A program made the translations under genes and the position numbers. The notes beneath the pieces are model-generated. The model was not told the origin of the DNA, made no database searches, and saw only the letters and a program-made list of their open reading frames with translations. A stretch of 64,000 nucleotides of DNA, taken from assembly GCF_900113115.1 (NCBI RefSeq), contig NZ_FOOF01000015.1:62001-126000 (forward strand), in the 5' to 3' direction. The DNA is from Duganella sp. CF458 (GTDB taxonomy: Bacteria; Pseudomonadota; Gammaproteobacteria; Burkholderiales; Burkholderiaceae_D). Positions 61,051-64,000 of the stretch are shown piece by piece (position 1 is the first letter of the stretch; every line of letters begins with the position of its first letter).

Positions 61051-61464
61051 ATGAAAAAATTGCTCATTGCCACTCTTCTGGCAGGTTCCCTGGGCGGAGG
61101 CCTGGCTATTGCGCCGATTGCCAGCGCCGATGTGGTGGTCGTCCGTGTTGCCCCACCGACGCCACGCGAGGAAGTCATTCCCCCGGCCCGTTCCGGCTAT
61201 GTCTGGACACCCGGCTATTGGCGCTGGAACGGCCATCGCCACGTCTGGGTCAACGGTAAATATGTGCGCGCCCGCCACGGCTACCACTGGCGCGAACCCG
61301 CCTGGGCCCAGATGGACAACGGCCGCTGGCGCATGGAGCGCGGGCGCTGGGAACGCGGCGACCGTGACCGTGACGGCATCCCCAACCGCTATGACCGCGA
61401 CCGCGACAACGACGGCGTGCCAAACCGGGTCGATGATCGCCCAAATAACCCGAACCGTTACTAA
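61051..61464 (+). CDS. YXWGXW-repeat protein with TSP3 calcium repeats (paralogue)
   Basis: 137 residues from the ATG at 61051 (AAGGAG upstream). A signal peptide ends near residue 26 (ASA). The aromatic repeat SGYVWTPGYWRWNGHRHVWV and the end DRDRDGIPNRYD, DRDNDGVPNRVD, DRPNNPNRY mirror the protein at 41681, which is longer. At DNA level the two TSP3 parts share a stretch of about 35 identical bases. No other gene of a pathway is near. Confidence 0.87.
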   Translation: MKKLLIATLLAGSLGGGLAIAPIASADVVVVRVAPPTPREEVIPPARSGYVWTPGYWRWNGHRHVWVNGKYVRARHGYHWREPAWAQMDNGRWRMERGRWERGDRDRDGIPNRYDRDRDNDGVPNRVDDRPNNPNRY

Positions 61465-61485: not shown

Positions 61486-61519
61486 ATGTCCACATTCGTT
61501 CCTGACCCCGAGTGGACAT
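61486..61519. repeat. Inverted repeat between YXWGXW gene and trpS leader
   Basis: ATGTCCAC (61486-61493) pairs with GTGGACAT (61512-61519) across an 18-nt loop. No T-run follows, so it is a poor terminator. Its right arm abuts the TTGACA of the trpS leader promoter, so it could be an operator or a REP-like relic. Only one copy is seen here. Confidence 0.5.
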
Positions 61520-61520
61520 C

Positions 61521-61548
61521 TTGACAGGGCCGCGCTGAACTGTAACCA
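61521..61548 (+). promoter_or_regulatory. Predicted promoter of the trpS leader
   Basis: TTGACA at 61521-61526 and TAACCA at 61543-61548, spacing 16 nt. The predicted start is near 61555, at or next to the leader ATG (61556), which would make the leader ORF leaderless. The -10 is weak (TAxxxT with a changed last base). Call by motif only. Confidence 0.5.
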
Positions 61549-61555
61549 TTGCGGG

Positions 61556-61606
61556 ATGAAATTTATCCAATCACATCTGCTTTCCCGCAATTGGTGGCGC
61601 CGCTGA
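61556..61606 (+). CDS. trpS leader peptide with tandem Trp codons
   Basis: A 16-residue ORF, MKFIQSHLLSRNWWRR, too short for routine gene calling. Trp codons 13 and 14 are adjacent (61592-61597), followed by two Arg and TGA. This is the layout of ribosome-stalling leader peptides of trp operons, and it sits 105 nt upstream of trpS, the enzyme whose substrate is tryptophan. No Shine-Dalgarno is present; with a transcription start near 61555 the mRNA would be leaderless, as known for trpL of Sinorhizobium meliloti. A leader RNA helix of 9 bp (AATCACATC 61569-61577 with GATGTGATT 61629-61637) encloses the Trp codons. Confidence 0.7.
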   Translation: MKFIQSHLLSRNWWRR

Positions 61607-61645
61607 CTTAGCGCGGCCACTGAAAAGTGATGTGATTTTAATATC

Positions 61646-61674
61646 AACGCCGCCTCTGTCCAGGTGGCGTTTTT
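61646..61674 (+). terminator. Attenuator-type intrinsic terminator upstream of trpS
   Basis: ACGCCGCCT (61647-61655) pairs with AGGTGGCGT (61662-61670) over a 6-nt loop, with five T at 61670-61674. It lies between the leader peptide and trpS, so it would stop most transcription before trpS unless antiterminated. GCGGC (61613-61617) upstream is complementary to GCCGC (61649-61653) in its left arm and is the candidate antiterminator strand; it otherwise pairs with the Trp-codon segment (61594-61604 with 61610-61620). Confidence 0.75.
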
Positions 61675-61711
61675 CTTGGCGCAATCGGTAGGGGCAAGCA
61701 GAAAGAACCCT

Positions 61712-62731
61712 ATGAGCCAGCCAGCATCCACCGCCAAACCGATTATCCTGACCGGCGACCGTCCGACCGGTCCGCTGCACCTCGGCCACTTCGTGGGCAG
61801 CCTGCGCAATCGCGTCTCCTATCAGGATGACTACCAGCAGTTCATCATGCTGGCCGACTCGCAGGCGCTGACCGACAATATGGAAGACACCAACAAGGTG
61901 CACCGTAACGTGGTGGAAGTGGCGTTGGACTATATGGCTTGCGGCATCGATCCGGCCAAATCGACCATCCTGATCCAGTCGCAGATCCCGGAACTGGCCG
62001 AGCTGACCTTCTATTACCTGAACATGGTCACCGTGGCCCGCCTGGAACGTAACCCGACCGTGAAGCAGGAAATCGTGCTGCGCGGCTTTGAGCGCGACAT
62101 CCCGGCGGGTTTCCTGACCTACCCTGCTTCGCAGGCTGCCGATATTTCGGCTTTCAAGGCTACCGTTGTGCCGGTCGGCGAAGACCAGATCCCGATGATC
62201 GAGCAGACCAACGAGATCGTGCGCAAGTTCAACCGCCTGGCCAACAAGGAAATCCTGGTCGAGTGCAAGGCCGTAGTGCCGGAGGTGGGCCGCCTGCCGG
62301 GCATCGACGGCAAGGCGAAAATGTCCAAGTCCCTGGGTAACGTGATCAACCTGGGCGCCAGCGCTGCCGAAATCACCGCGGCCGTGAAAATGGTCTACAC
62401 CGACCCGCTGCACCTGAAAGTCGCCGATCCTGGCCACCTGGAAGGCAACGTCGCCTTCATCTACCTGGATGCCTTCGATACCGAAAAGGCCAGCCTGCAG
62501 GAGATGAAAGACCATTACGTGCGTGGCGGCCTGGGCGACTCCATCGTCAAGAAGCGTCTGGAAGCCGTGCTGCAGGACATGCTGGCTCCGATCCGCGCCC
62601 GCCGCGAAGAACTGGCCAAGGACAAGGGCTACATCATGCAGGTGCTGAAGGAAGGCACCATGCGCGCCCGCGAGGTGGCTGCCCGCACCACCGATGAAGT
62701 CAAGGCCGCCCTGGGCCTGAATTACTTCTGA
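61712..62731 (+). CDS. trpS: Tryptophanyl-tRNA synthetase
   Basis: 339 residues from the ATG at 61712; the longer frame begins inside the terminator. Charges tRNA-Trp. The class I motifs are PLHLGH (21-26, the HIGH motif) and KMSKS (203-207). The Trp-binding region ([35 protein letters not shown]) is complete. Length is usual for bacterial TrpRS. It is preceded by a leader peptide and terminator that suggest control by tryptophan-tRNA charging. It overlaps the DUF1294 gene by 1 nt. Confidence 0.96.
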
Positions 62732-63033
62732 TGCTGTTCACGGCCGCGCTGTATGCAATCGCCAGCGCGGCATGCTTTATCGCCTATGCGCTCGACAAGT
62801 CGGCTGCCCGCCAGGGCCGTCGCCGCACTCCCGAGCGCACACTGCTCATCCTTGGGCTGGCCGGCGGCTGGCCCGGCGGCTTCGCGGCGCAGCAGCTGTT
62901 GCGCCACAAGTCGTCCAAGACCTCTTTTCTAGTCAAGTTCTGGTTCACCGTGGCGCTAAACCTGGCGGCCCTCGTCGCGCTACAAGCCGGATGGATAAGT
63001 CTCGGCGGGCTCTTCGTGGGGCCACAGGGCTGA
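62731..63033 (+). CDS. DUF1294-family small membrane protein
   Basis: 100 residues with three hydrophobic segments (LFTAALYAIASAACFIAYAL; TLLILGLAGGWPGGFAAQQL; FWFTVALNLAALVALQAGWI). The central DKSAARQGRRRTPE and the GGWPGGFAAQQLLRHKSSKT stretch are the conserved core of DUF1294. Function unknown. Its ATG overlaps the trpS stop (TGATG), so it shares the trpS transcript and its possible attenuation. The 3' end overlaps the convergent gene by 54 nt. Confidence 0.88.
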   Translation: MLFTAALYAIASAACFIAYALDKSAARQGRRRTPERTLLILGLAGGWPGGFAAQQLLRHKSSKTSFLVKFWFTVALNLAALVALQAGWISLGGLFVGPQG

Positions 63034-64000
63034 ACGTTCCAGCGGCCTGAGTGCCGTGCTGCGGTCGATGTGGATCAGCGCATCGAACTGCTGTTCCGCA
63101 TCGGCAAAAAAGTAATGGCTCATGCGCTCCGTATCGGGCCGGTAGATCACGCCAATCGCTCTTTCCAGCAAACTCCCGTGCGCCCGCGCCAGGGTGCTGC
63201 TGCGGCCGCGCAGCGGCAGCAGGAAGGCCGGCATGCCCACCTCGTGCAGCACACGCTCGACGCTGTCGGGCCGGGACGGCACGATGGATTTCAATTCGGC
63301 CGGGCCATCCCAGTCGCTGGCCGCCGTCACGCTGCCCGCATGGGTGGTGAAGCCAAGCAGGAAGCTGTCCTGCGGCCGGTAACGTTCGCGCACCAGCTGG
63401 CCAAGGTTCAACTGGCCGTGCTTACCCATTTCGGTGTGGCGCGCATCGCCCAGGTGCGAGTTATGTGCCCACACCACGATGCGCGCCGGCCTGCCTATCG
63501 CTTGACCCAGATGTTCGCGCAGGGATTGCAGCGTTTCCGCCATATGCGAATCACGCACATTCCATGATTCGTCGCGGCCCTTGAACATGGCGCGGTAGTA
63601 CACCTCCGCATTGCGGGTCACGCGCGCGTTCTGCTGGGCGTAGAAGAATTCGTCCGCCAGCGTGCCGGCGCGCAGGTGTTCGTTGGCGACGCGGTTCATC
63701 TCCAGCAGTTGGCGCAACACTTCGGCTTCGCAGTCGGGCTTCATGCCGAAGCTGGTGGCGTAGCCGTAGCGCTGCGGGTCTTCCGCAAAGTGGTCGATGC
63801 AGGCGTAGCGCTGGCGCGCGCGGGCTGCGGCTTCCGGGTCGGCCTGGTCCAGGTAGTCGATCACCGCGTGCATCGATTGCTGCAGGCTGTACAGATCCAG
63901 GCCGTAGAAGCCGCAGCGGCGGGCCGGGCTGGCGACATGCTGGTTGTGCACGCGCAGCCAGTTCACCAGGTCCACGATCTCGTGGTTGCGCCACATCCAT
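62980..64000 (-). CDS. Erythromycin-esterase-family protein, 5' end cut by window edge
   Basis: At least 340 residues, open at the right edge, so the N-terminus is missing. EreA-type features: WRNHEIVDLVNWLRVHN, FYGLDLYSLQQSMHAVIDYL, RDSHMAETLQSLREHL and VVWAHNSHLGDARHTEMGKH (putative His metal ligands). Such proteins include macrolide esterases and many of unknown role with a phosphoribosyl or surface link; resistance is not implied by family alone. Confidence 0.85.
   Translation of the reverse strand, partial: WMWRNHEIVDLVNWLRVHNQHVASPARRCGFYGLDLYSLQQSMHAVIDYLDQADPEAAARARQRYACIDHFAEDPQRYGYATSFGMKPDCEAEVLRQLLEMNRVANEHLRAGTLADEFFYAQQNARVTRNAEVYYRAMFKGRDESWNVRDSHMAETLQSLREHLGQAIGRPARIVVWAHNSHLGDARHTEMGKHGQLNLGQLVRERYRPQDSFLLGFTTHAGSVTAASDWDGPAELKSIVPSRPDSVERVLHEVGMPAFLLPLRGRSSTLARAHGSLLERAIGVIYRPDTERMSHYFFADAEQQFDALIHIDRSTALRPLERSALWPHEEPAETYPSGL

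Follow-up and report, generated by a model that had tools for sequence, protein, structure and literature searches.

What controls the transcription of trpS in Duganella sp. CF458? The gene encodes a tryptophanyl-tRNA synthetase (TrpRS), and in the window (the whole stretch of 64,000 nucleotides that was analysed) it is preceded by a short open reading frame (ORF) with two adjacent tryptophan (Trp) codons. An earlier note, made from the letters alone, had proposed that this leader is a Trp attenuator controlling trpS. The conservation of the leader, its alternative pairings, and predicted folds that depend on the position of the ribosome all support the proposal, and we consider it very likely that trpS is under a ribosome-mediated transcription attenuator that responds to the supply of charged tRNA-Trp. 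The parts of the element are:

61521-61549, forward strand: promoter, with -35 TTGACA at 61521-61526 and extended -10 TGT-AACCAT at 61541-61549.
61556-61606, forward strand: leader peptide ORF, MKFIQSHLLSRNWWRR plus stop; its start is predicted to lie at or next to the first transcript base.
61592-61597, forward strand: adjacent Trp codons 13-14, where the ribosome is predicted to stall; the ribosome walk has its maximum at Trp13.
61569-61577, forward strand: 5' arm of helix P0, AATCACATC, inside codons 5-8; pairs with 61629-61637 and includes covarying pairs.
61629-61637, forward strand: 3' arm of P0, GATGTGATT, with bases common to both antiterminator side hairpins.
61592-61622, forward strand: segment 1:2 protector hairpin (61592-61598/61616-61622 plus 61601-61605/61609-61613), containing the Trp, Arg and stop codons.
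61613-61617, forward strand: segment 2, GCGGC, unchanged in 34/34 aligned leaders with tandem Trp codons.
61613-61653, forward strand: predicted antiterminator three-way junction (61613-61617/61649-61653, 61618-61621/61626-61629, 61633-61636/61643-61646).
61646-61671, forward strand: segment 3:4 intrinsic terminator hairpin, with a T-rich stretch to 61677.
61712-62731, forward strand: trpS, 339 aa, TrpRS II-like, the putatively controlled gene (TIGR00233, PF00579, matches to solved structures).

The leader ORF can be read directly: as the note had described, 16 codons with adjacent Trp codons run from the ATG at 61556 to the TGA at 61606, and the trpS ATG follows at 61712. The codons of the regulated amino acid stand directly before the gene, and an intrinsic terminator, identified by sequence, also precedes the structural gene. 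The terminator with its T-run had been described as having 9 base pairs; it is present, but with 10 pairs (61646-61655/61662-61671), followed by TTTCTT, and the same terminator search returns 0.3 hits on average for shuffled sequences.

In the proposed mechanism, transcription would start at or beside the leader-peptide ATG. When Trp-tRNA is plentiful, the ribosome would reach the stop codon (61604-61606) and cover segment 2, P0 would re-form behind it, and the 3:4 terminator would end transcription before trpS. With scarce Trp-tRNA, the ribosome would stall at Trp13-Trp14 and mask the protector hairpin on its 5' side, together with part of P0; segment 2 would then pair with segment 3 in the three-way-junction antiterminator, and RNA polymerase would read into trpS. 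Where no ribosome initiates, P0 and the 1:2 hairpin would protect the terminator, making the default state off.

Fold prediction gives structures of this kind. The leader RNA folds at -46.6 kcal/mol, compared with -28.8 ± 3.4 kcal/mol for 200 shuffles (z -5.3), and the minimum-energy fold includes both the 9-bp helix and the inner hairpin of the earlier note. Without a ribosome, the 1:2 hairpin, which spans the Trp codons, lies inside P0 (61569-61577/61629-61637), and segment 3 is left for the terminator. With a footprint on Trp13 and a transcript ending at segment 3, the predicted fold is a three-way junction (-13.3 kcal/mol) composed of GCGGC/GCCGC and the hairpins CACT/AGTG and TGAT/ATCA. 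The rival pairing of 61613-61617 with 61649-61653, which can form in all of the aligned tandem-Trp leaders (34/34 and 45/45 in two alignments), had been called the weakest part of the model since it has only 5 bp; in the window it is instead the base of this larger junction. Because the 3' arm of P0 supplies bases to both side hairpins, P0 and the antiterminator are mutually exclusive, and in the predicted folds P0 is part of the switch. For the complete transcript, the terminator is predicted to be energetically favoured even with a stalled ribosome, so the switch would have to act during transcription, as other attenuators do. The predicted 1:2, 2:3 and 3:4 pairings are mutually exclusive, and the choice among them is set by ribosome position.

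The dependence on position was followed codon by codon, with an assumed footprint of 17 nt behind and 11 nt ahead of the first base of the aminoacyl (A) site. In the window leader, the probability of the 2:3 pairing, p(2:3), is ≤0.008 for codons 1-10 in the A site, rises to 0.79 at codon 11, and stays at 0.79-0.99 for codons 11-16, with a maximum of 0.993 at Trp13 and 0.945 at codon 16. Once the stop codon occupies the A site, p(2:3) is 0.000, and P0 is back at 0.974. A set of 54 representative leaders behaves in the same manner: p(2:3) averages 0.96 at the first Trp, 0.16 in the free RNA and 0.03 at the stop, and it is ≥0.5 for 51, 8 and 1 of the leaders, respectively.

The relatives were drawn from two sources, 294 genomes of the window's family (30 trpS loci) and 80 named contigs, which came to 106 loci after orientation and the removal of 4 duplicates. 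Among the named loci, a Trp leader ORF precedes this type of trpS in many Oxalobacteraceae (Massilia, Pseudoduganella, Duganella, Rugamonas, Janthinobacterium, Noviherbaspirillum and one Herbaspirillum); a single-Trp form occurs in some Undibacterium, and Duganella relatives also have one Trp (YWRRS, NWRRC). A filter requiring a Trp-containing ORF with the promoter spacing was applied to 171 trpS upstream regions and passed 116 leaders, or 111 distinct ones after 5 repeats were set aside. These 111 comprise 77 with two Trp codons in a row (WW), 6 with three (WWW) and 28 with one. The tandem codons are not universal, being replaced by one Trp in Duganella relatives and Undibacterium. The residue following the Trp run is Arg in 102/116 leaders. 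A T-run follows segment 4 in 98/116 (cut-off of at least 4 T in 6), and a looser count finds a T-rich stretch in 100/111. Conservation of the Trp codons and of the terminator, on which the proposal depended, is therefore strong. The filter dropped or altered a few cases: L090 and L164 were left out for want of a segment-3 match, L181 (variant -35 TTGCCA) and L205 (MNTPPTNAPGWMRA plus stop, a single Trp followed by Met) were missed, and for L163_G554 an internal ATG was chosen.

This type of TrpRS was found (E≤1e-80) in 57/399 genomes of the order, compared with 2/369 class-level genomes, one of which is the window's own. Outside the window's family (f1), an ATG-started Trp leader is present at 31/48 loci, in eight families: f5 (7/7), f27 (12/12), f51 (3/3), f21 (2/2), f32 (3/4), f31 (2/4), f42 (1/1) and f37 (1/1). 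None was seen in f25 (3 loci), f41 (10) or f146 (1). This tally was made by eye and counts only ATG-started ORFs just before trpS, which leaves out short Trp ORFs with a TTG or GTG start in G516, G628 and G774, as well as stretches of WW (G595) and WR (G447). In a tree of 61 TrpRS II proteins (built without L068), the leader label is clustered, and the starred branches force at least seven changes, a count that may be slightly high since G003 was labelled "none" although its locus, L205, has a single-Trp leader. Two f25 rows group with named Methylophilaceae in this tree. The control appears to have been lost or rebuilt several times, and we do not claim a single origin.

A covariance model of the element, R1, gave 10 matches over the 399 order genomes: six trpS leaders of the window's family, one (G600) directly before trpS, and three elsewhere. 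In the own genome, its only strong match is at the trpS locus (E 3.7e-25; next 0.89). The weak matches L117, L118 and L121 have no trpS in their gene context and were judged to be chance, and for the weak match L119 the inspection covered the sequence only. R1 is too narrow; inspection of the DNA that precedes trpS orthologues is what revealed the leaders of other families.

For pairing statistics, 8 divergent and 12 near-duplicate leaders were removed from 82 to give 62 rows (A1). Alignment A2 contains 34 WW rows (the 28 A1 rows left out are 17 single-Trp and 11 WW), and A3 contains all 45 non-redundant WW rows of A1. RNAalifold on all 62 leaders returned 13 pairs, one of them changed on both sides, which we think arises because the single-Trp Duganella rows are misaligned. 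On A2, the three helices of the terminator state are paired in 87.0% of cells, compared with 31-54% for slid controls; on A3 the values are 84.8% and 32-54%. Individually, the terminator helix is paired in 97.0% (A2) and 97.8% (A3) of cells, P0 in 84.3% and 80.0%, and the 1:2 protector hairpin in 81.5% and 78.7%. Neither the covariation score nor the count of cells with both sides changed is matched by any of 500 shuffles, on A2 or on A3. P0 has two (A2) and four (A3) pairs changed on both sides; on A2, column 16/92 is UA in 14 rows, GC in 9 and AU in 1, and column 22/86 is CG in 28, GC in 2, UG in 2 and UA in 1. The sequence of P0 also varies by family, for example CAAACCCA/TGGGTTTG in f5 (L196) and CGCAACCGC/GCGGTTGCG in f27 (L173). 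Against shuffled 5' parts, the P0 duplex energy gives a Fisher p of about 7e-15 (18/54 at p≤0.05), and the antiterminator energy, in a shuffle test that leaves the segment motifs unused, gives about 1.5e-16 (21/49 at p≤0.05; 49 of the 54 representatives, no terminator having been found in 5), although such Fisher values overstate significance because they assume independence and the sequences are related.

The leader peptide is probably leaderless, that is, the transcript is predicted to begin at or beside its ATG, because the -35 element lies 34-37 nt before the ATG and there is no Shine-Dalgarno motif. The note had read the promoter as TTGACA-N16-TAACCA. The TTGACA (61521-61526) stands, but TAACCA was replaced as the -10 by AACCAT (61544-61549), with a spacer of 17 and a TG extension (61541-61542); a simple consensus promoter scan scored neither -10 reading. 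From this -10, the usual start point, 7 nt further, would be the A of the leader ATG. The distance from TTGAC to the leader ATG is 35, 36 or 37 nt in 103/111 distinct leaders and 34 nt in one, values that are partly selected, since the spacing formed part of the leader filter; the remaining 7/111 carry TA-N3-T (TATACT in six of them), separated from the ATG by 6 or 7 nt. An unfiltered histogram of all TTGAC-to-ATG distances has 112 pairs at 35-37 nt, 48 at 27-28 nt and at most 10 at any other distance, and of the 48, 27 share the leader's frame, 17 are in another frame and 4 belong to loci without a filtered leader. A Shine-Dalgarno-like motif was found ahead of the leader ATG in 0/116 leaders, and upstream of the aligned trpS start, within 60 nt, the same motif set occurs in 56/116. 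The spacing argues against a transcription start downstream of 61606, which the note had named as evidence that would count against attenuation.

Several observations weigh against an attenuator of this design, in the statistics, the predicted folds and the relatives. At least as many pairs changed on both sides are seen in 175/500 (A2) and 101/500 (A3) shuffles, and at least as many further pair types in 22/500 and 204/500. The antiterminator core is invariant in the 34 A2 leaders, and so is uninformative for covariation; its side hairpins are 69-73% paired without an excess of covariation (414/500 shuffles are as high), and are clade-specific, Massilia relatives folding another inner hairpin, GAAATG/CATTTC. 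In the shuffle test described above, antiterminator pairing gives a Fisher p of 3.7e-6, with only 6/49 at p≤0.05. That the stalled antiterminator forms in 116/116 leaders is partly built in, since the segment finder used complementary motifs. In the ribosome walk, L009, L171 and L182 have p(2:3) <0.5 at Trp, and L060 retains the antiterminator at the stop codon. The P0 duplex is unsupported in Undibacterium L083, L087, L089 and L101, and supported in L084. A T-run is not scored in 18/116 leaders, and this count is a maximum, as the segment finder missed the TTTTT of L032 and L051. Janthinobacterium L054, L058 and L063 are genuinely without one: AACA follows segment 4, the leader ORF continues through segment 2, and termination may be weak or of another kind. 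Finally, single-Trp leaders are common, and no leader is found in several relatives (L015, some Undibacterium, Collimonas and Methylophilaceae). In L015 (G219, same genus), the leader and segment 2 are lost, and the promoter is kept with the segment 3:4 hairpin directly behind it; some Undibacterium (L078) likewise keep promoter and hairpin with no leader. As a natural deletion, L015 is a natural test of the effect of the bare hairpin.

These exceptions bear on what else the leader could be. If attenuation answered mainly to general leader translation (the presence of a ribosome, or leaderless initiation) rather than to tRNA-Trp charging, the Trp codons would be minor, which would suit the 28/111 leaders with a single Trp and the breadth of the antitermination zone, which spans six codons (11-16), such that the CGC Arg codons, if decoded slowly, could contribute too. 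Set against this are the two Trp codons in 77/111 and three in a row in 6/111 (at least one Trp being demanded by the filter), and a predicted maximum at or beside the first Trp, so that we regard this alternative as unlikely. The absence of a leader from loci that keep promoter and hairpin (L015, L078), together with the leaders lacking a T-run, would also fit a constitutive partial terminator, or a relic with a fortuitous ORF, with trpS merely set low. The recurrence of the Trp ORF, the promoter spacing and the alternative pairing across nine families makes this quite improbable.

A T-box, riboswitch or protein-binding leader, with the ORF incidental, seems to us the least probable of the explanations, and very much so: a scan of the whole window at the Rfam gathering score returned a tRNA as the sole match, with no T-box, riboswitch or catalogued leader and no match to the Trp leader family of Rfam, and the ORF, the position of the Trp codons and the pairing logic recur while the P0 sequence changes. 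Attenuation by the supply of Trp-tRNA remains the reading that we favour.

The product of the controlled gene would be a particular kind of TrpRS. The 339-aa protein scores above the cut-off for TIGR00233 and matches PF00579, and its best solved relatives are 1yi8 (399 bits) and 2a4m (395 bits), which are named tryptophanyl-tRNA synthetase II and are of Deinococcus origin; the next is 2g36 (232 bits). By these matches, trpS encodes a TrpRS II-like enzyme. A second TrpRS in the genome is a 403-aa open frame, 43% and 31% identical in the two parts that match; its apparent start is 4 nt behind a 229-codon open frame, and no short ORF with two Trp codons was seen ahead of it. Among 26 genomes of the same genus, 23 have three TrpRS matches, as does the own genome, and 3 (G040, G120, G133) have one, still with single-Trp leaders (L025, L008 and L009, respectively). 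The TrpRS II-like enzyme thus appears to be usually a second TrpRS in the window's genus, and sometimes the sole one found. In a review (PMC9437257), TrpRS II is counted among the auxiliary enzymes, as is the indolmycin-resistant TrpRS1.

The trpE gene of the own genome (L154, G000:C57:290744-292132, reverse strand) has a leader of its own, MFLNKRHNVTHRGSIEAWLWRRWQS plus stop, with three Trp codons, located 245 nt before the aligned start and followed by a -16.6 kcal/mol hairpin and six T. By this arrangement, Trp biosynthesis and Trp charging appear to answer to the same signal.

Attenuators of proteobacterial trp operons (E. coli trpL; Sinorhizobium rnTrpL/peTrpL) combine four-segment logic, Trp codons and a terminator. 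They control Trp biosynthesis, whereas the window element would control the synthetase. For trpS, S. coelicolor is reportedly the species that Vecchione and Sello studied. Their 2010 paper concerns, by its title, ribosome-mediated attenuation of an auxiliary TrpRS gene. Attenuation of Streptomyces trpS was predicted in 2005, for trpS2 of S. avermitilis (PMC1262725), and trpL2 of S. lividans is described as leaderless, with the peptide MMTRTCTQLWRAA plus stop (PMC8079986). The window leader resembles these in having a Trp-containing leader peptide before trpS, and it is itself predicted to be leaderless. Streptomyces differs in belonging to the Actinobacteria and in sequence, and S. lividans trpL2 has one Trp and no uridine-rich tract (PMC8079986); the window leader and its relatives usually have WW, together with an intrinsic terminator and P0 as an additional helix. 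In Caulobacter crescentus, also Gram-negative, a short coding sequence lies in front of trpS on the trpS mRNA according to coding-sequence mapping (PMC4117421), and the likeness is in the position of the coding sequence. The pheST operon of gamma-proteobacteria, another aminoacyl-tRNA synthetase operon, has a classical attenuator (PMC1262725), which differs in amino acid (Phe), gene and lineage.

The remark of the earlier note that trpS attenuation is rarely described in Gram-negative bacteria therefore needs a qualification: it is already known in Streptomyces (PMC1262725, PMC8079986), and a leader coding sequence is reported in Caulobacter (PMC4117421). No description of a betaproteobacterial trpS leader was found in searches of the open-licence PMC library. 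The closest precedent is the attenuated trpS of Streptomyces, and here the control appears unusually widespread, with an added P0 helix. The leaders indicate Trp-codon attenuation of a TrpRS gene in nine families of one Gram-negative order, beyond Streptomyces, and, as more than 100 natural versions of a single switch, would be material for research on how leaderless translation is coupled to termination. Since the control seems tied to an enzyme of TrpRS II type, which in the window's genus usually has another TrpRS beside it, the idea of a backup synthetase is directly testable.

More speculatively, and with a modest chance of being right, the TrpRS II may be a spare, inhibitor-tolerant enzyme that is inducible: a block of the housekeeping TrpRS, by a natural indolmycin-like compound or by oxidative damage, would lower Trp-tRNA, stall the ribosome on the leaderless leader and turn on the second enzyme. 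If true, the order would contain a widespread backup circuit that responds to antibiotics and is convergent with that of Streptomyces. The terminated leader RNA and the WWRR peptide might also act in trans, as is described for peTrpL, the leader peptide of Sinorhizobium.

Just 5' of the -35 element, at 61487-61518, lies a palindrome, TGTCCAC-(18 nt)-GTGGACA, with the usual core TTCCTGACCCC. Because the genome contains the pattern 16 times, compared with 0 for a reversed-pattern control, it looks like a dispersed repeat resembling repetitive extragenic palindromes; it was not seen before trpS in the relative L004. Farther 5' of the promoter, the product of 61051-61461 is a small protein carrying a WXXGXW repeat (PF12779). 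An erythromycin esterase family protein (PF05139, 362 bits) is encoded on the reverse strand at 62983-63996, beyond trpS and a DUF1294 gene.
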